This document shows positions 3,767-17,202 of a DNA stretch of 38,843 nt, piece by piece. The position numbers and the translations under genes were made by a program. Position 1 is the first letter of the stretch; every line of letters starts with the position of its first letter. This DNA comes from an uncultured Clostridia bacterium. Its GTDB lineage: Bacteria; Bacillota; Clostridia; UBA1381. The stretch is taken from the NCBI GenBank assembly GCA_947628515.1, contig CANRAG010000010.1, forward strand, positions 1 to 38,843. The letters are read 5' to 3'. The notes under the pieces are model-generated. The model did not search any database. It saw only the letters and a program-made list of their open reading frames with translations, and was not told the DNA's origin.

Positions 3767-3832
3767 AAGATAAAGGGCAAAGTATAAGGACAACATTGAG
3801 GTGAACTTGATTTACAATGGAAGGAGGTCAAC

Positions 3833-4141
3833 ATGGCAACTGTATCAACGCGGATAGATGACCATGTTAAGTCAAATGCCGAGCAGATAGCGAATGAAAT
3901 CGGGATTCCGCTCAGCACCGCAATTAATATTTTTTTAAAGCGATTTGTCGCGAATAAAGGGTTCCCTTTTAGTGTGGTAGCCCCGGTAAGGGCACAGGTT
4001 GAGCCTGTAGTAAATGTAGAATTATTAGATGCGTCGGTAAAAAAAGCAATAGCCGATCCAAATAATGTAGGTCTATCGCATCAATTCACCTATTTAGATC
4101 CGGATACGAAGCAAATAGTTAATGTTAACAGAAAGGAGTGA
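3833..4141 (+). CDS. RelB/DinJ-family type II antitoxin
   Basis: A 102-residue protein. Residues 1-50 match the ribbon-helix-helix DNA-binding domain of RelB/DinJ antitoxins: a beta strand (ATVSTRIDD), helix 1 and a second helix with GIPLSTAINIFLKRF. The C-terminal half (PVRAQVEPVVNVELL onward) would wrap and neutralise a toxin. The start is fixed by a strong GGAAGGAGG about 5 nt upstream. A promoter lies at 3690-3718. The stop codon overlaps the ribosome binding site (AAAGGAG) of the next frame, which starts 5 nt later and opens like a zeta-type kinase but is broken, so the antitoxin now appears to be an orphan. Family assignment is firm; the partner type is inferred from the fragment. Confidence 0.88.
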   Translation: MATVSTRIDDHVKSNAEQIANEIGIPLSTAINIFLKRFVANKGFPFSVVAPVRAQVEPVVNVELLDASVKKAIADPNNVGLSHQFTYLDPDTKQIVNVNRKE

Positions 4142-4556: not shown

Positions 4557-7500
4557 ATGGGGAGAAGAACAAAACGAATATTGTCGTGGATAACTTCGGC
4601 GGCAATGTCGGTGTCGGCATTCGCAGGACTGTCAATATCAGTTAGCGCGGCGGAAACACCGATCACCGAGGCGGAGCAAGATTTTGACAGTCTTCAGGAT
4701 GGTTCGCTCGGCTGGACTACCGACGGTAGCGGCATGACATATTCGCTTATCGACAATGATTCGGGCAAGGCCTTGAGCGCTGTGGCGAATACGGGCAATA
4801 AAAGTATTACCGGAACGGTTACTTTTCCGACTGTTATCGATTTAGCCGATAACGTTGTTAAGGTGCAGTTTGACTGGCAGGCGTCTATAATTGGTGTGTC
4901 GGACTATTTTGATTCCACGCTTCAAGACAGCGAAGGACACGGCATTTTCAGTATAGGTTCCGAGTATGGCGGAAACAGTAAGGCTCCGAAGGCGCGGCTT
5001 AGAATTAACGGAAGTCTGGTAAATCCGGAAGTGGACCGGTACAACAAATGGAATAAGGTAACGGCTGTAATAGATTATGAAACAAAAAGGGTTTTGAGCA
5101 TAGAGGTAGCAGAACCCGATTCCGAAACTGTTCTCGCGTCAGTTAAAGACGCCGCATTCCTTTCAGAGGATGTCGCAGGCAGCGCGGCGGGATTCGGTTT
5201 AAATGCCGCAAAAATAAGCGGTAACATTAACGATAACAAAACATATTTTGATAATTTTAATGCATACAATATAACCGATGAGTATTATAAGGTTACCTTT
5301 ACGGTAAAGGACAAATCCGAAAATCCCGTGCAGGGCGCGACCGTAACCTTTGACGGAACGGATTATACAACCGATGATCAAGGTCAGGTAGTGGTTAAGC
5401 ACAAGACCGGAACCGACATCGAGTATAAAGTACACAAGGACGGCTATGAAACAGAGGATGATCAACCCGACGCGACGGGTACCGTGAATATAGCCGATGG
5501 TGATGTTTCGGAGAATGTTACATACAGCGAGGCGGTTTACACACCTCAGGCTAAGACCGTTACCATAACAGGCGGTCAGAAGGTTATGACGGCTCCGCAT
5601 ACGACCGGTCAGACCACAGAGAGTGCAGCGTTTGATGTTACGGTTATCGACCAAAAAGGCGTGGACCAGACTGACAACGAAAAGACGGTTGTCAAGTGGG
5701 CGGTTACTCCGGAAAACAGAGGCGTTAGCGTTGACGATGAGGGTGTTGTTACCGTCGATGACACATTTAAGTCCGAGTCTGAACGCGTTGAGACTTTCAC
5801 TCTTACTCCGACTGTTACAATTGACGGCGAGCCCGCTGTTGAAGGAGCTTCAATAGATAAGGCAGAGATCGCGATTTCCGATTATTTGTTCTATGAGCCC
5901 GGTGTGGACGGTTCGAGCTACGGTTCTACAGACACCACACAAATTGGCGATACGGCTTATATATCCACGCCGTCCGCAGCTGTAAGGAAGGACAAAATAG
6001 ATCTTCCCGACCCTATCGTATTTACACCGGGAACGGCGGAGCAGATTACATTTAAAACCGCTATTAATAATGCAACGGGAAATACATACGGTAAGGAAAT
6101 ATCATTTATTGACAGCGAAGGCACAGAGTCTGTCGGTTTTGCATATCACAACAGCGATATAGGCGACAGAAAAACCGCCGTTTGGGGCAGCCAGAGCAGC
6201 ACAATGGATACAGTATGGAATACGCTTCCGGCCATTAATACATGGATGGATGTTTCAATACTTTATAAAACCAATGCTTCGGGAGTTACAAAAATAGAGC
6301 TTACTGTAGGCGGTAAGGAATACAGCTTAGGCGAGACAGCCGCTAAAGGCATTGCCGCCATTACTCTTGAAACAAAGCTACAGGCGCCCGGTCGTACGGC
6401 TCTTATAAAGGATATAGTAATTGACAGTGTTGATGTTGCCGGAATAGGTATCGAAGGTGCCGACAGCGTTTCGAGCATTGCTGATAAATCAAGAACAAAG
6501 ACATACTCGGTTGACGCTCTTGTAATTCAGGACGACGAGACATTTACATGGACTACCGATTCCGATACGGTTACGGTGACCGCAACCGATGAGGATGGCG
6601 GCAAGACTGCCTCGTTGAACATTCCGGAGGGCGTTGCGGATACTGTAAACATCACCGTAACAAGCTCCGAGGATCCGGCAAAAACCGCAACAAAAGCGGT
6701 GACAATCGCAGCCGCTGTGCCGACATTTGACATTGCCGGTCCGATTTCGGTTGAAGCTGTTCCCGGCTCAACTGTTCAATACAGCGTTGACAAGGTAACG
6801 GATCAGTTCGGCGACGATATAACTGATTTTGTAACAGCGACATGGACGATAAGCGGTAGAGATACAAATCCCGACAGCGGCGCGATATTCACCGTTGACG
6901 CCGATGAGGCAGGCCCTGCGGTTCTTGTAAAGGCAACATATTCAGATGGCAAGCTTTCATCAGTAAAATTTGAAGATGTTACTTTAACAGAGGGCTCCTA
7001 TGAGGTAAGCGCTCCCGTAGGTACAAAGGTAATGCTTTGGAACACCATGAACGGTGACGCCGCAATGAAGCCGATTGACGAAGCTATAACAATTCAGGCT
7101 GCCGCAAGTGAAAACAATACTATTGATGCAAACGGTTTACTGACAGTTAATAAAGCCGGTAATGAAGATATTGAAGCTACAATACTCGGAACAAAAGTAA
7201 CAAAGACCGTTACAATCGCGGCATTCTCAAAGACTGTAGACTATACAACGGATGCGGTTGACGTAGGTGACATCGTAAGTTATGGCGCAAAAACTTATAC
7301 AATTACATATTCGGATGGTGAAACAGAGGTTGTAACAGCGGCGGATAACAAGGTTACCCCGACTAAAACCGGCAAGTCCGGCAAAATGGAAATTCTTCCA
7401 AATTATAAGTTCGATCTCGGTGGTTCGGGTACGGACGGCTATACTAATGTAACCGGTACAAAGGTCGGTGGATACGGATTTACAGCGGCTCCGACCGTTA

Positions 7501-8654
7501 CCGGAGGAGCAGGAACGGGAGTTCAGGCAAAGGGCGTAGACCTTGATAACAATGTATTCGAGGTTGATATTCCCGACGGAAGATATGATATGACTTTCTA
7601 TAAGGCTGATACAACGCGTACATATATCAGAGTAAACGGATATATGGCTGTTCCTGAGGCCAATTATCAGGATGGTGATTCAGAGACACAGGCTCCCGGT
7701 GTTTACACGAAGAAGGATGTAATTGTTGAGGGTGGTGTTGCCAAGATTACAACAGGATGGAGCTATGGCGTGGCGCCTATCTCGGCTGTTGATATTACAA
7801 AGAAGTCTGATTTTGAGGAAAGAAAGACTCATATCTGGCTTGCAGGTGACTCTACTGTTACAAATTATAGACCTACTCCGTCATCAAAGGATAACTGGGA
7901 TCCGGGTCGAAGACGCGCGGGCTGGGGTCAGTTCCTTGAGTATTATTTACAGGACAGTGTAATTGTTGATGACTTTGCTCATTCGGGAGATTGGGCAGTA
8001 AACTGGTATGCTAATACTTTTGCATCGGTTATAGCGAATGCTGAACCGGGTGACTATTTACTTATTCAGTTTGGTATTAATGATAGAACAAAAACTCCGA
8101 ATAAAGATGATATGAAGGCTGCTCTTGAGGCCATGGTGGACGAGGCACGCGAAGCCGGGATTATTCCGGTACTTATGACACCCGAAATCTGTATGTCACA
8201 GTATGGAAGTATCGGTGAGCATGAAAAATCAACGGGAAGCGGTAACGCGGGCTGGTTCGAGCAGAACAGAACAGTAGCGGAGGAAAAAGGTACATTGCTT
8301 ATAGATCTTGCTGACTTATCCGGTTCATTATGGGCTACTATGGGAAAGACATGGGTATCTCAGAATTACTTCCTGTATTGGGACGGTGCGCAGAAAGACG
8401 GACAGCATATGTCATATCAGGGCGCTAAGCTCGTTGCGGGTTTAGTTGCGGCGGAAATTGCAAAGCAGAAGGAAGAAGGTAAACAGGTTAATGATGCGAC
8501 GGAGACATTTGACGGTATACCCGTAAACGAGGTATCGGAGCAGACCATTACCTATACAGATTACGATCCGAACGGTGACAATGATCAGACGGATAAGAAG
8601 GAAAACCAACAGACTAAGGTAAATCTTCCCAAATACACAATGGCGACCGAATAA
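4557..8654 (+). CDS. Secreted multidomain rhamnogalacturonan acetylesterase (CE12-like SGNH hydrolase)
   Basis: A 1365-residue exported protein. Residues 1-32 form a signal peptide (RRTKR, hydrophobic core, cleavage near SVSAAE). Residues about 41-240 look like a jelly-roll lectin domain, about 241-328 a carboxypeptidase-regulatory-like Ig domain, about 330-440 and 650-940 several bacterial Ig-like domains around a second jelly-roll (about 445-650). The C-terminal part has the beta-rich module that precedes bacterial CE12 enzymes (from about 947) and an SGNH hydrolase: GDST with nucleophile Ser1099, GIND with Gly1173 and Asn1175, and DGQH with Asp1281 and His1284. CE12 enzymes remove acetyl groups from rhamnogalacturonan I of pectin. 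No cell-wall anchor, SLH or dockerin is visible at the C-terminus. It is monocistronic, with its own promoter and terminator. The start follows GAGGGA. Confidence 0.85.
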   Translation: MGRRTKRILSWITSAAMSVSAFAGLSISVSAAETPITEAEQDFDSLQDGSLGWTTDGSGMTYSLIDNDSGKALSAVANTGNKSITGTVTFPTVIDLADNVVKVQFDWQASIIGVSDYFDSTLQDSEGHGIFSIGSEYGGNSKAPKARLRINGSLVNPEVDRYNKWNKVTAVIDYETKRVLSIEVAEPDSETVLASVKDAAFLSEDVAGSAAGFGLNAAKISGNINDNKTYFDNFNAYNITDEYYKVTFTVKDKSENPVQGATVTFDGTDYTTDDQGQVVVKHKTGTDIEYKVHKDGYETEDDQPDATGTVNIADGDVSENVTYSEAVYTPQAKTVTITGGQKVMTAPHTTGQTTESAAFDVTVIDQKGVDQTDNEKTVVKWAVTPENRGVSVDDEGVVTVDDTFKSESERVETFTLTPTVTIDGEPAVEGASIDKAEIAISDYLFYEPGVDGSSYGSTDTTQIGDTAYISTPSAAVRKDKIDLPDPIVFTPGTAEQITFKTAINNATGNTYGKEISFIDSEGTESVGFAYHNSDIGDRKTAVWGSQSSTMDTVWNTLPAINTWMDVSILYKTNASGVTKIELTVGGKEYSLGETAAKGIAAITLETKLQAPGRTALIKDIVIDSVDVAGIGIEGADSVSSIADKSRTKTYSVDALVIQDDETFTWTTDSDTVTVTATDEDGGKTASLNIPEGVADTVNITVTSSEDPAKTATKAVTIAAAVPTFDIAGPISVEAVPGSTVQYSVDKVTDQFGDDITDFVTATWTISGRDTNPDSGAIFTVDADEAGPAVLVKATYSDGKLSSVKFEDVTLTEGSYEVSAPVGTKVMLWNTMNGDAAMKPIDEAITIQAAASENNTIDANGLLTVNKAGNEDIEATILGTKVTKTVTIAAFSKTVDYTTDAVDVGDIVSYGAKTYTITYSDGETEVVTAADNKVTPTKTGKSGKMEILPNYKFDLGGSGTDGYTNVTGTKVGGYGFTAAPTVTGGAGTGVQAKGVDLDNNVFEVDIPDGRYDMTFYKADTTRTYIRVNGYMAVPEANYQDGDSETQAPGVYTKKDVIVEGGVAKITTGWSYGVAPISAVDITKKSDFEERKTHIWLAGDSTVTNYRPTPSSKDNWDPGRRRAGWGQFLEYYLQDSVIVDDFAHSGDWAVNWYANTFASVIANAEPGDYLLIQFGINDRTKTPNKDDMKAALEAMVDEAREAGIIPVLMTPEICMSQYGSIGEHEKSTGSGNAGWFEQNRTVAEEKGTLLIDLADLSGSLWATMGKTWVSQNYFLYWDGAQKDGQHMSYQGAKLVAGLVAAEIAKQKEEGKQVNDATETFDGIPVNEVSEQTITYTDYDPNGDNDQTDKKENQQTKVNLPKYTMATE

Positions 8655-8717: not shown

Positions 8718-8782
8718 GCGTCGGGATTTTGGTTCACCCTTTTTTTCATAATTTTAGAATTGTAAAATAACTGTTACGGCAC

Positions 8783-8842: not shown

Positions 8843-9592
8843 ATGAAAAAATGGCATATCATTGCCGGAATATCGGCATTACTTGTAATTGTACTGGTGG
8901 TTGCGGGCTCGCTGGTGTATAAATACTATCTCGTGCCCAAATACCTGGAGCCGGTAGTTGAGGAATTCAGCGAGACAATGAAAAGCGACGACATGCTCGC
9001 CGAGATTTATTCGGTTGTGTCCGATTTCCATGACGAGGGCGTTATAAGCGACGACACATACTCAACCTTCATGTCGGCATACAATAAGCGCACCCGCGAC
9101 GACGAGGAATTTGCCCGCGAAATTTTAGCGGAGGAGGACGAGAATAACACAAGCTCATCGGACAGCAATTCTCTCAGCGCGAGATACGCTTCCAACAAGG
9201 TCGGCGTTGAGCTTATTCAGACCGAGGACGAGTCGGGCAAGGGAAAAGCGGCGTCGCGCTACAGCACGGACAGAAATTCGGAGCGCACCAAGTCGGAGGA
9301 TTTACTTGACGCGAGAAAGATCGTTGACAGTACGGATGAACCCGCAGAAACCGAGGTTCCGCAGGATATTCAATCCGCGTACGACAAGCTTCGCGAGCAT
9401 ATGACAAGCTCGGAATACTCCACTTTCCTTAAGATAATGCGAAAGCTTGACTATAACGATTTAAAGACTTATTATACAAGCGCCGATCTCGCGGGGCTTA
9501 AGGAATATCTCCATTCAAGACTTAGTGACGATGAATACAGCGAGACGGCAGAGCTGTATTCCAAATACATAGTGCTGTTTATGGAAGACTGA
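8843..9592 (+). CDS. Membrane-anchored protein of unknown function
   Basis: A 249-residue protein that I do not recognise. Residues 6-30 are a single strongly hydrophobic segment after MKK, giving an N-terminal anchor with the bulk outside the cell. Residues about 40-90 and 165-249 are acidic, helix-rich and Tyr-containing. They are joined by a polar Ser/Asp/Glu/Lys-rich linker (about 95-160) that looks disordered. Both helical parts contain a Ser-x-x-x-Tyr-Ser-x-Phe style turn (DDTYSTFMSAY and SSEYSTFLKIM), so the ends may be distant repeats. No cysteines or catalytic motif were seen. GGGGG precedes the start, and the EamA gene follows 4 bp after the stop, which suggests a two-gene operon. 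A role in the envelope is possible but not shown. Confidence 0.75.
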   Translation: MKKWHIIAGISALLVIVLVVAGSLVYKYYLVPKYLEPVVEEFSETMKSDDMLAEIYSVVSDFHDEGVISDDTYSTFMSAYNKRTRDDEEFAREILAEEDENNTSSSDSNSLSARYASNKVGVELIQTEDESGKGKAASRYSTDRNSERTKSEDLLDARKIVDSTDEPAETEVPQDIQSAYDKLREHMTSSEYSTFLKIMRKLDYNDLKTYYTSADLAGLKEYLHSRLSDDEYSETAELYSKYIVLFMED

Positions 9593-10757: not shown

Positions 10758-11870
10758 ATGGCAGATTTACAGTTAAAACACATCTATAAGAGGTATGCAG
10801 GTAACGTTACCGCCGTTAGCGATTTCTGTATCGACATCGAGGATAAGGAATTTATCATTCTCGTTGGCCCTTCAGGCTGCGGTAAGTCAACAACTCTCCG
10901 TATGATCGCGGGCCTTGAGGAGATCTCAGAGGGTGAGCTCTACATCGGCGGCAGACTTGTTAACGATGTTGCTCCGAAGGACAGAGATATAGCGATGGTA
11001 TTCCAGAACTATGCTCTTTATCCGCATATGACAGTATTTGAGAACATGGCATTTGCTCTTAAGCTCCGCAAGACTCCGAAGGATGAGATTAAGAAGAGAG
11101 TTACAGAGGCTGCCAGAATTCTCGATATCGAGCATCTTCTTGACAGAAAGCCGAAGGCTTTGTCGGGCGGTCAGAGACAGAGAGTTGCCATGGGTCGTGC
11201 CATCGTACGTAATCCTAAGGTATTCCTCATGGATGAGCCTCTTTCAAACCTCGACGCAAAGCTCAGAGTTGCGATGAGAACCGAGATTAAGAAGCTCCAC
11301 AACAAGCTCCAGACAACATTCATCTACGTTACGCATGACCAGACAGAGGCTATGACAATGGGTACGAGAATTGTTGTTATGAAGGACGGTATCGTTCAGC
11401 AGATCGACACACCTTCAAACCTCTACAACAAGCCGTGCAACCAGTTCGTAGCAGGCTTCATCGGCTCACCGCAGATGAACTTTATCACAGTTAAGCTCGT
11501 TAAGAAGGGCGACGGTCTCTGGGCTGAATTCGGTTCGGACGCTGTTAAAATTCCTGAGGGCAAGGCTTCAAAGGCTGAGCTTGCTCCGTACATCGGTAAG
11601 GAGTTAATTCTCGGTATCAGACCTGAGGATATTCATGATGATGAAAACTTCCTTACAACATATCCGGATGCGACATGTTCGGCATTCGTAGAAGTAACCG
11701 AAATGATGGGTTCGGAGACATATCTCTATCTGACAGTCAACGGCATACAGTTTACGGCAAGAGTTGACCAGAGATCGACAGCTAAGATTAATGACACAAT
11801 TAAGATTGGCTTCGATATGAACAGAGTTCATTTCTTTGATAAGGACACAGAGCTTGCGGTTCTTAACTGA
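10758..11870 (+). CDS. msmK: Sugar ABC transporter ATP-binding protein (MsmK/UgpC family)
   Basis: A 370-residue ATPase that powers carbohydrate ABC importers from the cytoplasmic face. Walker A GPSGCGKST is near residue 37, the Q-loop VFQNYALYPHMTV follows, then signature LSGGQRQRVAMGRA, Walker B VFLMDEPLSNLDA and the H-loop YVTHDQTEA. Residues from about 235 form the OB/TOBE regulatory domain of the CUT1 subfamily. No permease or binding-protein gene lies nearby, so it probably serves several importers, as MsmK does in streptococci and MsmX in Bacillus. Its codons are strongly biased (AAG for Lys, AGA or CGT for Arg), which fits high expression. GAGG lies 9 nt before the ATG. The gene is monocistronic. 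Confidence 0.93.
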   Translation: MADLQLKHIYKRYAGNVTAVSDFCIDIEDKEFIILVGPSGCGKSTTLRMIAGLEEISEGELYIGGRLVNDVAPKDRDIAMVFQNYALYPHMTVFENMAFALKLRKTPKDEIKKRVTEAARILDIEHLLDRKPKALSGGQRQRVAMGRAIVRNPKVFLMDEPLSNLDAKLRVAMRTEIKKLHNKLQTTFIYVTHDQTEAMTMGTRIVVMKDGIVQQIDTPSNLYNKPCNQFVAGFIGSPQMNFITVKLVKKGDGLWAEFGSDAVKIPEGKASKAELAPYIGKELILGIRPEDIHDDENFLTTYPDATCSAFVEVTEMMGSETYLYLTVNGIQFTARVDQRSTAKINDTIKIGFDMNRVHFFDKDTELAVLN

Positions 11871-11882
11871 TAAAGACTACTT

Positions 11883-11911
11883 AAAAGGAGACGGATCGCC
11901 GTCTCCTTTTT
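11883..11911. terminator. Bidirectional terminator between msmK and the 6S RNA
   Basis: GGAGACGG (11887-11894) and CCGTCTCC (11899-11906) pair perfectly with an ATCG loop. The flanking AAAA and TTTTT let it work for msmK on the plus strand and for the converging RNA gene on the minus strand. Confidence 0.88.
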
Positions 11912-11927
11912 GCATATACAAAATCAA

Positions 11928-12133
11928 ATAAAAATCCCCGGAGTAACCGTGGATTAAAGTCAGGATTCTACCTGCCCAAGCAGGTGGGTCGCTTCCCGAA
12001 AGCTTTACAAGTCCACTGGCAGTCACCAAAAGGTGAAAGGAGGCATGTGCGCCGCTTGCCGGAGTAAGCATCCCTTTTATAATGTGTTGGTAAAAAAATG
12101 ACCTTCCCACGCGAAACCCCAGGGCTTCTTTGT
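11928..12133 (-). ncRNA. ssrS: Probable 6S RNA
   Basis: A non-coding stretch of about 205 nt with its own strong promoter and terminator. On the minus strand the two ends pair: CCCUGGGGU near the 5' end with ACUCCGGGG near the 3' end, then CGUGG with CCACG, giving a long closing stem. Inside, the 3' strand carries GACCCACCUGCUUGGGCAGGU, whose ACCUGC/GCAGGU hairpin preceded by ACCC resembles the hairpin in the 3' side of the 6S central bubble. An apical stem (UUUCACC/GGUGA, GGCAAGC region) completes a rod. 6S RNA binds SigA-RNA polymerase and is a template for pRNA synthesis in stationary phase. Length, rod shape and isolation fit; identity rests on recalled consensus, so another structured RNA is possible. 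Exact ends are estimates. Confidence 0.7.
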
Positions 12134-12139
12134 GTAATT

Positions 12140-12168
12140 AGTATAACACAGACACCCGTAAAATACAA
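12140..12168 (-). promoter_or_regulatory. Promoter of the 6S-like RNA
   Basis: On the minus strand TTGTAT (12168-12163), 17-bp spacer and TATACT (12145-12140). Transcription would begin near 12133, just before the closing stem. Confidence 0.75.
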
Positions 12169-12223
12169 GTGTTATTTCATTACAATTTAGTTACAGATGT
12201 ATTACGCATCATAGTGCCGTAAA

Positions 12224-12493
12224 TCAATCCTCAAACGATTCCTCGTCACGCTTTACAAACTCGTTAAACGCGCGCTCTAAAAGTTCCTCGTCCTCAACCA
12301 TTACCAGCTCCGCGTCCTCGCTGTCGATGTCGCCCTCGACCATCATAATAAGAACCTCGTCAGATTCCTGCTCCTCCGGCAAAACCTCTGCCAAAGCAAA
12401 GAACGTATGACCTTCAAACTCAAACACGTCAAGCGTTTCAAACTCAATTTCAACGCCGTTTTCATCTTCAAGAATTATAATATTATTTTCCAT
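12224..12493 (-). CDS. DUF1292 protein
   Basis: An 89-residue, very acidic protein of the DUF1292 (YrzB) family, whose function is unknown. It shows the family pattern: an N-terminal strand with NNIIILEDENG, an EFEGHTFFALAEV strand and an acidic, helical tail. The ATG at 12493 is chosen because AGAAAGG lies about 8 nt upstream, while the more distant ATG at 12526 has no such site. It follows ruvX on the same strand after 64 bp, the usual Firmicutes neighbourhood (ruvX followed by DUF1292). Confidence 0.88.
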   Translation of the reverse strand: MENNIIILEDENGVEIEFETLDVFEFEGHTFFALAEVLPEEQESDEVLIMMVEGDIDSEDAELVMVEDEELLERAFNEFVKRDEESFED

Positions 12494-12557
12494 ATCATTT
12501 ACCTTTCTGTTTAGTATATATTTCATACCTATATTCTAATATAAAAGTATGCCTTTG

Positions 12558-12971
12558 TCAACCTTTATTTTTCGCAAGCCAGCTTTCGAGAATAAGACAA
12601 GCGGAAACGGTGTCGATTACATCCTTGCGTTTTTTGCCGCGCGTGTTTGTGGTGTTTAGAAATCTCGCGGCGCCCATGGTTGTCAGCCGTTCATCCATAT
12701 ATTCCACAGGCACTTTGCACTCCTCCTTAAGCCGATTTGCGAACTCATACGTCGCGTCCGCCCTGAACCCCTCTGTGCCGTCCATATTGCGCGGCAGACC
12801 AATCACAACGGTTTCGGGCTTGTATTCGTCTATGAGCTTTTTTAAATCGGTTACAAGCCCGTTTAAGCCCTTATTCTTTATTGTGCCCACTCCCTGCGCC
12901 GTAATACCCAGCAAATCACTTACCGCAACGCCCACGCGCGCGTCGCCGTAGTCAATTCCCATAACACGCAT
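12558..12971 (-). CDS. ruvX: Putative pre-16S rRNA nuclease / Holliday junction resolvase-like YqgF
   Basis: A 137-residue RNase H-fold protein of the YqgF/RuvX family, which matures the 5' end of 16S rRNA and may act on recombination intermediates. The N-terminus MGIDYGDARVGVAVSD contains the catalytic Asp7. VVIGLPRNMDGTEG, the YMDERLTTMGA strand with its Glu, and DVIDTVSACLILESWL near the C-terminus with its Asp complete the active site. Length is typical. It has its own promoter at 13010-13038. In many Firmicutes ireB (DUF965) and alaS precede ruvX; neither does here. Confidence 0.94.
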   Translation of the reverse strand: MRVMGIDYGDARVGVAVSDLLGITAQGVGTIKNKGLNGLVTDLKKLIDEYKPETVVIGLPRNMDGTEGFRADATYEFANRLKEECKVPVEYMDERLTTMGAARFLNTTNTRGKKRKDVIDTVSACLILESWLAKNKG

Positions 12972-14644: not shown

Positions 14645-14687
14645 CATGTGAAGAGCCGCGGGCGCAATGCCCGCGGCTCTTCACATG
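14645..14687. terminator. 19-bp perfect hairpin between convergent genes
   Basis: 14645-14663 and 14669-14687 are perfect inverted repeats of 19 bp with a GCAAT loop. There is no long T run on either side. The arm at 14669-14687 includes the stop codon (14681-14683) of the minus-strand gene, so the hairpin is shared by both converging transcripts. Confidence 0.8.
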
Positions 14688-15334
14688 ATTTCGTTATTAT
14701 CTATAAGCATCCGTTTTCTGCAAACCGCCGTGAATTCGGCTTTAAAGCCGCCGCAATACCTCTCCATTGCCGCCACAACCGTTTCAGGCCGCAGATTGTA
14801 CCCGCTGCCGCATGATAAAACCATTCTCACGGTCTGTATCCCGTCCGTATAGCCCAAATCCTCTATCTCGTATATATGCGGCAAAATATCCGAGTCCTTA
14901 ACTCCGCTCTTTGTCTTTTTTGGGACTATAAGCTCCTTATTACGCATAAGCTCGTCAATATCGCAGCGTTGTGTGCATTCTATCTCCGCAACATACTCCG
15001 CCATATTAATTTTTGTAAGGTCTATTTCCTTTGCCGCAAGCCGCCGCGCCTTATAAAACGTAAATCCCGGCGGCATGGCGCGGTTTAGCTCATCAACTAC
15101 CTGCTCGTCACTTAGCCCCGTTATAAGACCCACCTTCATGTAGTCGCCCTCGCTTGTTACCGCCACGGGAAGCGGCTGGGCTATAGTCATGACCGGATGC
15201 GGATTAAAGCCCTGCGAGAACTCGAACCGGAGCTTCGAGCGCCTCACCGCGCGATGGAAGCAACGCACGAAATCCAGATGTGAAATGAACTTTACACGGT
15301 CGTCCCGTCCGTATTTAAGAATAAATTTACTCAT
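14681..15334 (-). CDS. Radical SAM-linked protein (TIGR03936, DUF2344)
   Basis: A 217-residue protein matching the DUF2344 family. It begins FILKYGRDDRVKFISHLD and contains KLRFEFSQGFNPHP, the two best-conserved stretches of that family. The function is unknown. It is nearly always next to, or fused with, the TIGR03960-type radical SAM protein; here its ATG overlaps the stop of that gene by 4 nt (15331-15334), so the two are translated together. It is the last gene of the seven-gene operon, and its stop codon lies within the terminator hairpin. Confidence 0.88.
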   Translation of the reverse strand: MSKFILKYGRDDRVKFISHLDFVRCFHRAVRRSKLRFEFSQGFNPHPVMTIAQPLPVAVTSEGDYMKVGLITGLSDEQVVDELNRAMPPGFTFYKARRLAAKEIDLTKINMAEYVAEIECTQRCDIDELMRNKELIVPKKTKSGVKDSDILPHIYEIEDLGYTDGIQTVRMVLSCGSGYNLRPETVVAAMERYCGGFKAEFTAVCRKRMLIDNNEIM

Positions 15335-17202
15335 TCCACAGCGCCCTCCTTATCGCGTTTTTCAACGCACACGCCCGCGTTAAAGCATGCCGCGCCGCAG
15401 CCCGAACATTTTAAGCGGCAATTCGGAGTGGTTTCGCCCCGTTTCGCGCGCTCGTTTTCGGCTATAAGGAATTTTTTCGTAACGCCCACATCTATATGGT
15501 CCCACGGCAAAATCTCGTCGTAGGAGCGCTCCCGCGCCGCGTAGAAGTCGGGGTCAAGCCCGCAGTCGTAAATAGCGCCCATCCATTTATCGAAGTCGAA
15601 GAATTCGCCCCACGCGTCAAATTTACAGCCGCGCTTTACCGCTGTGATTATAGCCTTGCACAGCCGTCTGTCGCCGCGCGAAAACACTCCTTCAAGGTAG
15701 CTTGTACTGTCGTCATGATACGTGAAACGCAGTCTCTTTGACGGTATATTCTCCTTAATGAACCTCTGCTTGCGCCGAAGCTCCTCGCGGGAGTTCATGC
15801 CGAACCACTGGAACGCCGTAAACGGTTTCGGCACAAAGCTCGACGCGCTCATGGTTATGTTTATCTGCTTCGCGCGCTCCTCCTTGGGGATTGCAAAATA
15901 TACGTCAAGTATCTTTTTTCCTATTTCGGGAATGCCCAATAAATCCTCGTCCGTCTCCGTGGGCAGTCCTATCATAAAATACAGCTTTACGTTGGTCCAA
16001 CCGCCGCGAAACAGCAGATTTGTTGACGCGAGCACATCGTCCTCGGTCACGTTTTTGTTTATCACGTCGCGCAGTCTCTGCGTTCCCGCCTCACACGCGA
16101 ACGTGATACCGGTTTTACGTACCTTCTGCACGCGCTCCATAAGCTCTAACGAGAAGTTATCTATTCTTAGCGACGGCAGGGACAGACCTATTTTCTTCTC
16201 CTCCGTTATCTTTAAAAGTCCCTCCGTAAGCTTCGGCAGCCCCGAAAAATCGCTTGTGGACAGCGACGATAACGAAATCTCGTCATAGCCGCTGCAGGAG
16301 AGCAGACTGTCGGCAAGTCCGAGCAGGGTTTCCGGCTTGCGTTCGCGAAGCGGACGGTATATGTATCCCGCCTGACAAAAACGGCAGCCGCGCAGACAGC
16401 CGCGCATGACTTCGAGCATTACCCTGTCATGTATTACCTCGCCGAACGGCACGATAATCGTGTCCGGCGCCGGAGTGCTGTCGAAATCCCGCATTATACG
16501 CTTGCGTATTTTTTCGGGCGTATGCGGATTGTTACGGGTTATGCTTTTTACAGTGCCGTCCTCGTTATAGTCCACATCGTAGAACGACGGAACATATATG
16601 CCTTCCACATTTTCCGCAAGTCGCTCCAAAAGCTCTTTTTTCGATTTTTTGCCATCTTTTTTCCATGCCTTCAGGATTTCCATTGTCTCGTGAACCTGTT
16701 CCTCGCCCTCGCCGAGCATGAAAAAGTCAAATATATCCGCAATCGGCTCCGCGTTATACGCGCACGGGCCGCCGCCGTATATGATAGGGTACTCCTCGCC
16801 GCGCTCCGCCGCCAAAACCGGAATTTCCGCCAGGTCGAGCATGTTTACTATATTTGAGTATGACAGCTCATATTGAAGCGTAAAGCCCAGTATATCAAAA
16901 CGCGTGACCTCATCGCCGCTTTCAAGCGCGAAAAGACGCATACCGTGATTTCGCATCTCCTGTTCCATATCTTCCCACGGCGCAAAAACACGCTCGCAGT
17001 AGGTGTCCTCGCGCGTGTTTAGTGTGTGGTATATTATTTTAAGCCCGAGATGCGACATAGCCACCTCGTACACATCCGGAAAACAGAAGCCGAAACGTAT
17101 ATCGACCGACGACGGATCCTTCGTGACCGCGTTCATCTCTCCGCCCGTATAGCGTGTCGGCTTCATCACCCTCGAAAGAATTTTATCCTTTAAAGTTATC
17201 AT
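15331..17202 (-). CDS. B12-binding-like radical SAM protein (TIGR03960 family)
   Basis: A 623-residue iron-sulphur enzyme. Residues about 35-180 resemble a cobalamin-binding Rossmann-like domain, including VYEVAMSHLG, IIYGGGPCAYN and FFMLGEGEEQVHE. Residues about 255-500 are a radical SAM barrel with the cluster motif CLRGCRFC (Cys269, Cys273, Cys276). The C-terminus has a Cys-rich tail (CRLKCSGCGAACF) that could hold a second cluster. The substrate is unknown; relatives include methylthiotransferases and B12-dependent methylases. It overlaps gerW upstream (17199-17202) and the TIGR03936 gene downstream by ATGA junctions. The catalytic partner relation is inferred from conserved adjacency. 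Confidence 0.9.
   Translation of the reverse strand: MITLKDKILSRVMKPTRYTGGEMNAVTKDPSSVDIRFGFCFPDVYEVAMSHLGLKIIYHTLNTREDTYCERVFAPWEDMEQEMRNHGMRLFALESGDEVTRFDILGFTLQYELSYSNIVNMLDLAEIPVLAAERGEEYPIIYGGGPCAYNAEPIADIFDFFMLGEGEEQVHETMEILKAWKKDGKKSKKELLERLAENVEGIYVPSFYDVDYNEDGTVKSITRNNPHTPEKIRKRIMRDFDSTPAPDTIIVPFGEVIHDRVMLEVMRGCLRGCRFCQAGYIYRPLRERKPETLLGLADSLLSCSGYDEISLSSLSTSDFSGLPKLTEGLLKITEEKKIGLSLPSLRIDNFSLELMERVQKVRKTGITFACEAGTQRLRDVINKNVTEDDVLASTNLLFRGGWTNVKLYFMIGLPTETDEDLLGIPEIGKKILDVYFAIPKEERAKQINITMSASSFVPKPFTAFQWFGMNSREELRRKQRFIKENIPSKRLRFTYHDDSTSYLEGVFSRGDRRLCKAIITAVKRGCKFDAWGEFFDFDKWMGAIYDCGLDPDFYAARERSYDEILPWDHIDVGVTKKFLIAENERAKRGETTPNCRLKCSGCGAACFNAGVCVEKRDKEGAVE

Follow-up and report, generated by a model that had tools for sequence, protein, structure and literature searches.

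The closest described counterparts of the element studied here are the 6S RNAs of Bacillus subtilis, Escherichia coli, and lactic acid bacteria. The 6S-1 RNA of B. subtilis (bsrA) and the E. coli 6S RNA, used as controls, matched the same Rfam family (RF00013) as our element. According to the accessible portions of PMC8876501 and PMC12005410, the pRNA of 6S-1 starts at nucleotide 40 with GUUCGG; like the pRNA predicted here, it begins with a G at the equivalent position and carries an A-run in its second half. The E. coli pRNA also has GG at positions 4/5 but, as far as the available text goes, starts with an A and carries a run of four G residues. For lactic acid bacteria, the available part of PMC8414754 describes a conserved pRNA start region that likewise contains a GG dinucleotide, with AA at positions 9/10, and, for about a third of the 6S genes, a cre regulatory site close to the promoter. 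The usual neighbors given there are rarA and uspA, whereas the lineage studied here has ruvX-DUF1292 and a WalR-type repeat.

The length and composition of the pRNA matter for the release of the polymerase. In the available portion of Damm et al. (PMC12005410), sigma release is placed at a pRNA length of ca. 9 nt and final release at 13 to 14 nt, and homonucleotide stretches in pRNAs are suggested to slow the polymerase and thereby fine-tune release from 6S RNA. The runs listed in that portion are four nucleotides long (A4 in B. subtilis, G4 in E. coli, and C4 in Aquifex). None of the papers listed in our literature searches combined 6S RNA, pRNA, and slippage, and a search for "6S RNA" with Oscillospiraceae or Ruminococcaceae gave none among the matches listed.

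Identity, structure, and surroundings of the 6S RNA

We analyzed a stretch of 38,843 nt (referred to here as the window) from the genome of an uncultured member of the Clostridia, together with genomes of the same genus, family, order, and class. An earlier note on this DNA had proposed a probable 6S RNA in a gap between convergent genes, and the gap, the direction, and the neighbors were as it described. The MsmK/MalK-type sugar ABC transporter ATPase (msmK; 10758..11870, plus strand; PF00005 and PF17912) converges on the element, which lies on the minus strand, and the DUF1292 gene (12224..12526, minus strand; PF06949, 42.4 bits) and ruvX (12558..12971, minus strand; PF03652, 150.1 bits) are found upstream of it, the former co-directional with it. 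Two open reading frames of 66 and 77 aa in the ORF list traverse the RNA.

The identification itself was borne out. With cmscan, the complete RF00013 model (positions 1 to 187 of 187) matched 11931..12128 on the minus strand; the score was 63.7 bits (gathering score, 46.4), with an E value of 1.7e-10 for the window. In this covariance-model check, which the earlier note had suggested for both the 6S and raiA models, there was no raiA among the matches. Judging from the sequence, the transcript ends are likely at about 12133 and 11928. The 205-nt RNA had a folding energy of -72.7 kcal/mol (z = -3.36), and none of 200 dinucleotide shuffles was equally stable.

Evidence for the structure also came from aligning 29 family members, with the 6S RNA of the window included and the match of G035 left out. 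The consensus structure comprised 43 pairs, 16 of which showed two-sided changes, compared with 13.1 in shuffles (a value of 16 was reached by 16 of 500). In this alignment, 96.0% of the cells were paired, versus 86.8% in shuffles and 39.5 to 47.7% when the partners were slid; two-sided changed cells numbered 125 versus 40.5, and the covariation score was 0.318 versus 0.151, a value as high being found in none of 500 shuffles. The covariation-supported structure is a long rod with a closing stem, a central bubble, and an apical arm.

That the element might be a structured RNA of another kind, or a fragment of read-through transcription, is very improbable. Its 63.7 bits fall below the scores of many 6S RNAs of the same order (the best being 107.1), but the match is full length and above the gathering score, the covariation is family wide, and the Rfam competitors in the region all stayed below their cutoffs. 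A permissive scan of positions 11700 to 12300 gave nine other Rfam families in this sub-threshold range, among them GibS (29.2 of 115 bits, spanning the end of msmK and the msmK hairpin), anti-hemB (22.1 of 49.5 bits), and NsiR1 (20.5 of 39 bits). The element is therefore a 6S RNA of ordinary identity, and almost surely of ordinary mechanism; for the identity together with the general mechanism of polymerase sequestration and pRNA-driven release, we put the probability at roughly 95%. At slowed growth, the RNA would mimic an open promoter, so that the SigA holoenzyme would be occupied by 6S RNA instead of by DNA promoters.

The source genome (2.9 Mb) had a single RF00013 match, and a second copy was found neither with RF00013 nor with a lineage model (150 of 574 first-look candidates scored). 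Across the genus, family, and order, 51 of 61 genomes, the source genome included, had one 6S RNA each at an E value of ≤0.001, and RF00013 gave no match in the other 10. The lineage model recovered one of these 10, a copy cut by a contig end (G007), and gave nothing at an E value of ≤0.001 in the remaining nine (150 candidates scored in each), where loss or an assembly gap may alike be the cause. The comparison set used below consisted of 50 of the 51 places (29 from the family, including 12 from the genus, and 21 from the rest of the order; G035 was left out). Outside the order, the class sample comprised 110 6S RNAs from 105 genomes, taken from 134 such places (141 in all); the 24 places left out were second copies and weaker matches. 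One class member (G099, contigs C36 and C13) had three RF00013 matches, two of them ca. 12 kb apart on one contig.

A co-directional DUF1292 gene was found upstream of 6S at 12 of the 12 genus loci, 11 of the 17 other family loci, and 5 of the 21 other loci of the order; where it is missing, contig ends or divergence may be the cause. The convergent msmK, in contrast, was a neighbor at only 2 of the 50 6S loci (viewed within up to ca. 1.5 kb). When 20 ruvX loci were scanned with Rfam, 6S RNA appeared in three. One (L056) is probably the same locus as that of the genome G035, given the identical coordinates and score. The others come from other MAGs labeled Oscillospiraceae: in L058, 6S lies at 3789-3974 (plus strand), ca. 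0.4 kb downstream of ruvX, and in L065, it lies at 6072-6273 (minus strand), ca. 2.7 kb from ruvX and on the opposite strand. Elsewhere in the window, 4557-8654 (plus strand) encodes a 1,365-aa protein with a signal-peptide-like start and a C-terminal part that reads by eye as SGNH-type esterase-like (GDST..., GIND...), and two adjacent genes of 217 and 623 aa with a 4-nt overlap (14681-17202, minus strand) form what we take to resemble a DUF2344/radical-SAM pair.

A long U-run in the predicted pRNA template

Once nucleotides return, the polymerase would use the 5' strand of the bubble region as the template for a pRNA. Placed by homology with the start given for B. subtilis 6S-1 in the available text of PMC8876501, the pRNA of the window is predicted to start at 12086 and to read 5'-GUUGGUAAAAAAAUGACC (12086..12103, plus strand), that is, GUUGGU-A7-UGACC. 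Its first six positions (GTTGGT, with GG at 4/5) were the same in 29 of 29 family members. Immediately 5' of ACCAACAC, which is invariant in these 29 members, the 6S RNA carries seven consecutive U residues (12092..12098, minus strand). Because the pRNA start is placed by this homology, the seven U's form the distal half of the predicted template and would specify A7 to A13 of the pRNA. The B. subtilis 6S-1 pRNA, GUUCGGUCAAAACU in the accessible portion of PMC12005410, has only A4, at positions 9 to 12. The earlier note had seen here a U-rich 5' bubble strand near 12085-12100; the seven U's are present, but they belong to the pRNA template and the P2 strand and not to an open bubble. The computed fold pairs some of these U's with the conserved strand GGUAGAA.

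The same note had called the run unusual, and this holds only outside the family. A search of the class for the exact 15-mer TTTTTTTACCAACAC found it in 12 of 391 genomes; the family, with 14 members sampled, contributed 7 of these 12. As such a search misses shorter runs and runs with other flanks, the count is of little value taken alone, and the template strands were therefore compared directly, measuring the longest U-run within 12 nt 5' of the conserved CC. Runs of at least 6 U's were found in 26 of the 29 family members, in none of the 21 6S RNAs from the rest of the order, and in none of the 110 from elsewhere in the class. Within the family, where a run of 6 to 8 is thus normal, the longest run was 4 (two members), 5 (one), 6 (nine), 7 (six), or 8 (eleven); in the rest of the order it was 3 (one), 4 (six), or 5 (fourteen), and in the class outside the order it never exceeded 5, a length reached by 7 of the 110. 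In pRNA terms, the A-run begins at position 7 in 29 of 29 family members and ends at positions 12 to 14 in 26 of them, that is, around the published release lengths.

The long run could have been kept for pairing in helix P2, or could be drift in an AT-rich stretch, and thus be unrelated to pRNA synthesis; we would give this only a little less than an even chance. The pairing of part of the run with GGUAGAA is consistent with it, as are the U-rich but A-interrupted strands found at this place in the sister families and the runs of only 4 or 5 in 3 of the 29 family members. However, those same A-interrupted strands suggest that pairing by itself does not need 6 to 8 uninterrupted U's, and the longest T-run downstream of ACCAA was ≤5 in all 50 RNAs (last 8 nt excluded).

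We also examined the stability of the perfect duplex between pRNA and template. For the 13-mer, the computed energy was -12.8 kcal/mol in the window, at the weak end of the family range (-15.5 to -12.8), compared with -26.6 kcal/mol for E. coli; for 14 nt, it was -13.9 kcal/mol, versus -20.3 in B. subtilis. The 13-nt duplexes of the class sample, with a median of -15.75 kcal/mol and a range from -22.9 to -13.4, overlapped those of the family; here the pRNA start was set as a fixed offset, and 11 of the 110 class rows have no G at that position, so that energies may be one position off. Hybrids from the rest of the order were weak as well (-13.4 to -11.4 kcal/mol), and at 9 nt, the class reached -7.4 kcal/mol, weaker than the -9.2 of the family. 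Since the rest of the order has weak hybrids too and some 9-nt class duplexes are weaker, a weak hybrid is no distinguishing feature of the long run. A Mann-Whitney test on the duplex energies was set aside as evidence because the sequences are related. Only the long uninterrupted run is specific to the family, and weak hybrids are common to the whole order.

As to function, the second half of the family pRNA would be nearly pure A, and at a length of ca. 13 to 14 nt the 6S RNA would refold and the polymerase would be freed. Release in the family would then be more ATP dependent, and slippage may occur on the U-run.

A possible promoter mimic in the bubble was considered as well. Antisense to the central bubble, TATAAT (12078..12083, plus strand) ends 2 nt ahead of the predicted pRNA start and is part of TTGCCG-16-TATAAT (10 of 12 matches); shuffles average 1.1 such sites. 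Conservation of TATAAT as a mimic was not borne out, the exact hexamer being present in 1 of 29 family members and TAAGAA being the commonest form (13 of 29). The stretch stays AT-rich in the family (mean of 0.78), and the identity of the 6S RNA is independent of this hexamer.

Promoter, transcript ends, and an upstream WalR-type repeat

The promoter was read by the usual spacing rules. On the minus strand, an extended -10 element (TGtTATACT, 12148-12140) consists of TGt (12148-12146) and the hexamer TATACT (12140..12145), the latter conserved but not invariant in the 12 genus members; a weak consensus match to a -35 hexamer, TTGTAT (12163..12168), precedes the -10 hexamer with a 17-bp spacer. 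From the position of the -10, transcription would start at 12133, 7 nt after it. In a MAFFT alignment of the 12 genus members, CTTGTA at -35 was identical throughout and the extended -10 was well conserved, while the spacer was not; the same identity in a row-anchored comparison is partly built in, the rows having been anchored on CTTGTA, which does not apply to the MAFFT alignment. The 6S promoter was absent from the list of a consensus promoter scan that demanded at least 9 of 12 matches. The promoter had been described as strong, which overstates it given the weak -35 and the scan, although the extended -10 is good and conserved in the genus. The terminator proposed at the 3' end was likewise overstated. 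There, the closing stem of 6S continues into the U-rich tail AUUUUUAUUU, and the scan listed no canonical hairpin terminator. Between msmK and 6S, a palindromic hairpin (11883..11910, either strand; ca. -18 kcal/mol on both, z = -6.3 and -5.8) possibly serves, going by its predicted folding, as a terminator for both strands.

Just upstream of the extended -10 promoter from which 6S transcription would start is a direct repeat, TGTAAC-TAAAT-TGTAAT (12179..12195, minus strand), at -62 to -46 from the predicted start. It is a perfect match to TGTWAH-N5-TGTWAH, the consensus of B. subtilis WalR (YycF) as quoted in the available part of PMC9210968. In the 160 nt upstream of 6S, a perfect box was found in 11 of the 12 genus members, the twelfth having one mismatch, compared with an expectation of 0.04 genomes from dinucleotide shuffles of the same 160 nt. 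Outside the genus, 1 of 17 other family loci had it, and it was missing from all 21 other loci of the order and from all 30 loci checked in the class. Because the backward pattern, used as a control, also matched upstream of 6S in 2 of the 12 genus members, the argument for the box rests on its conservation. The TGTAA half-sites are near-invariant within the genus, while flanks and spacer bases vary.

We also considered that the repeat is an UP element, or a set of phased A/T tracts, contacting the polymerase directly. UP elements can lie around -62 to -46, and the repeat has both this position and a high A/T content. Against this, its best-conserved letters are TGTAA at an exact 11-bp spacing, and the upstream regions of NlpC/P60 genes are enriched for the repeat as well, with its distance from the gene varying; this explanation is quite unlikely.

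The enrichment upstream of cell wall genes gives the WalR-type reading independent support. The source genome contained the motif 42 times, versus 26 times for its backward form, only mildly above the control, and many of these matches may therefore be due to chance. They include matches upstream of two NlpC/P60 genes; of the five such genes above the cutoff in this genome, two have their start in the examined stretch and both have boxes, one of which lies inside an ORF call. We extended this analysis to orthologues encoding SH3-NlpC/P60 proteins (the NlpC/P60 domain assigned by PF00877, and the SH3 domain read by eye) in 15 genomes, of which 12 upstream regions were used (G010, G011, and G015 were dropped, the start being cut off or the match in pieces). 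Nine of these regions held a total of 14 forward boxes, compared with no backward ones and an expectation of 0.06 from mononucleotide shuffles, and 3 of the 12 had no forward box. The same regions had 9 matches on the opposite strand, so that the orientation is not one-sided. Because of this enrichment, the motif appears to be the box of a cell wall regulator in the lineage.

Other occurrences of the motif are recorded here as observations. Upstream of one SH3-NlpC/P60 gene (G000 C94, L272), three WalR-type repeats lie within 300 nt, with a fourth overlapping one of them on the other strand. One match in the source genome is in divergent orientation to a gene that looks by eye like murA. In the window, a second repeat, TGTAAAATAACTGTTAC (8761-8777, plus strand), lies 82 nt upstream of 8843-9592 (plus strand), which encodes a 249-aa protein with a hydrophobic N terminus and no Pfam match and is a possible further target.

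With regard to the regulator, a YycF/WalR-like protein (G000:C22:26256-26939) scored 318 bits, below the curated cutoff of 340, with the next family at 251.5, and the gene after it reads by eye as a sensor kinase. Regulators of the OmpR family share 11-bp direct repeats, and the repeat might thus be bound by a member other than WalR (e.g., PhoP/PhoB). The genome has eight near-full-length matches to the YycF model, the PhoB and VanR models score this family too, and one looser match of the motif is in divergent orientation to a gene whose product looks by eye like a phosphate-binding protein. Nevertheless, the WalR consensus fits in the direction of 6S transcription, and the motif marks cell wall hydrolase genes, though on both strands there; we consider binding by another member of the family somewhat unlikely. 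From the position of the repeat just upstream of the promoter, we infer that a WalR-like response regulator may tune the supply of 6S RNA. WalR-type control of 6S transcription, as read from these sequences, is a tentative proposal with a chance slightly below one-half. A link between 6S RNA and WalR was not found in the accessible parts of the open-access articles PMC4818034, PMC4435603, PMC4959528, and PMC12057360.

Meaning for the family and the genus

The predicted pRNA template can be regarded as a variant of those described, and the upstream repeat as a candidate new regulatory input. Combining both, the switch of the genus might be doubly rewired, with a WalR-type regulator of cell wall and growth acting directly on 6S transcription and an uninterrupted A6-A8 tract at pRNA positions 7 to 12-14 weakening the hybrid at the lengths given for sigma loss and release and making release ATP dependent and prone to slippage; this combined scenario is on the unlikely side.

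If neither the idea on the U-run nor that on WalR holds, what remains is a sound annotation of 6S RNA in an uncultured lineage. In the family, natural U-runs ranging from 4 to 8 are available at the relevant position and close relatives can serve as controls, which makes the homonucleotide idea directly testable. The WalR link, if true, would tie a global brake on transcription to the control of cell wall growth.
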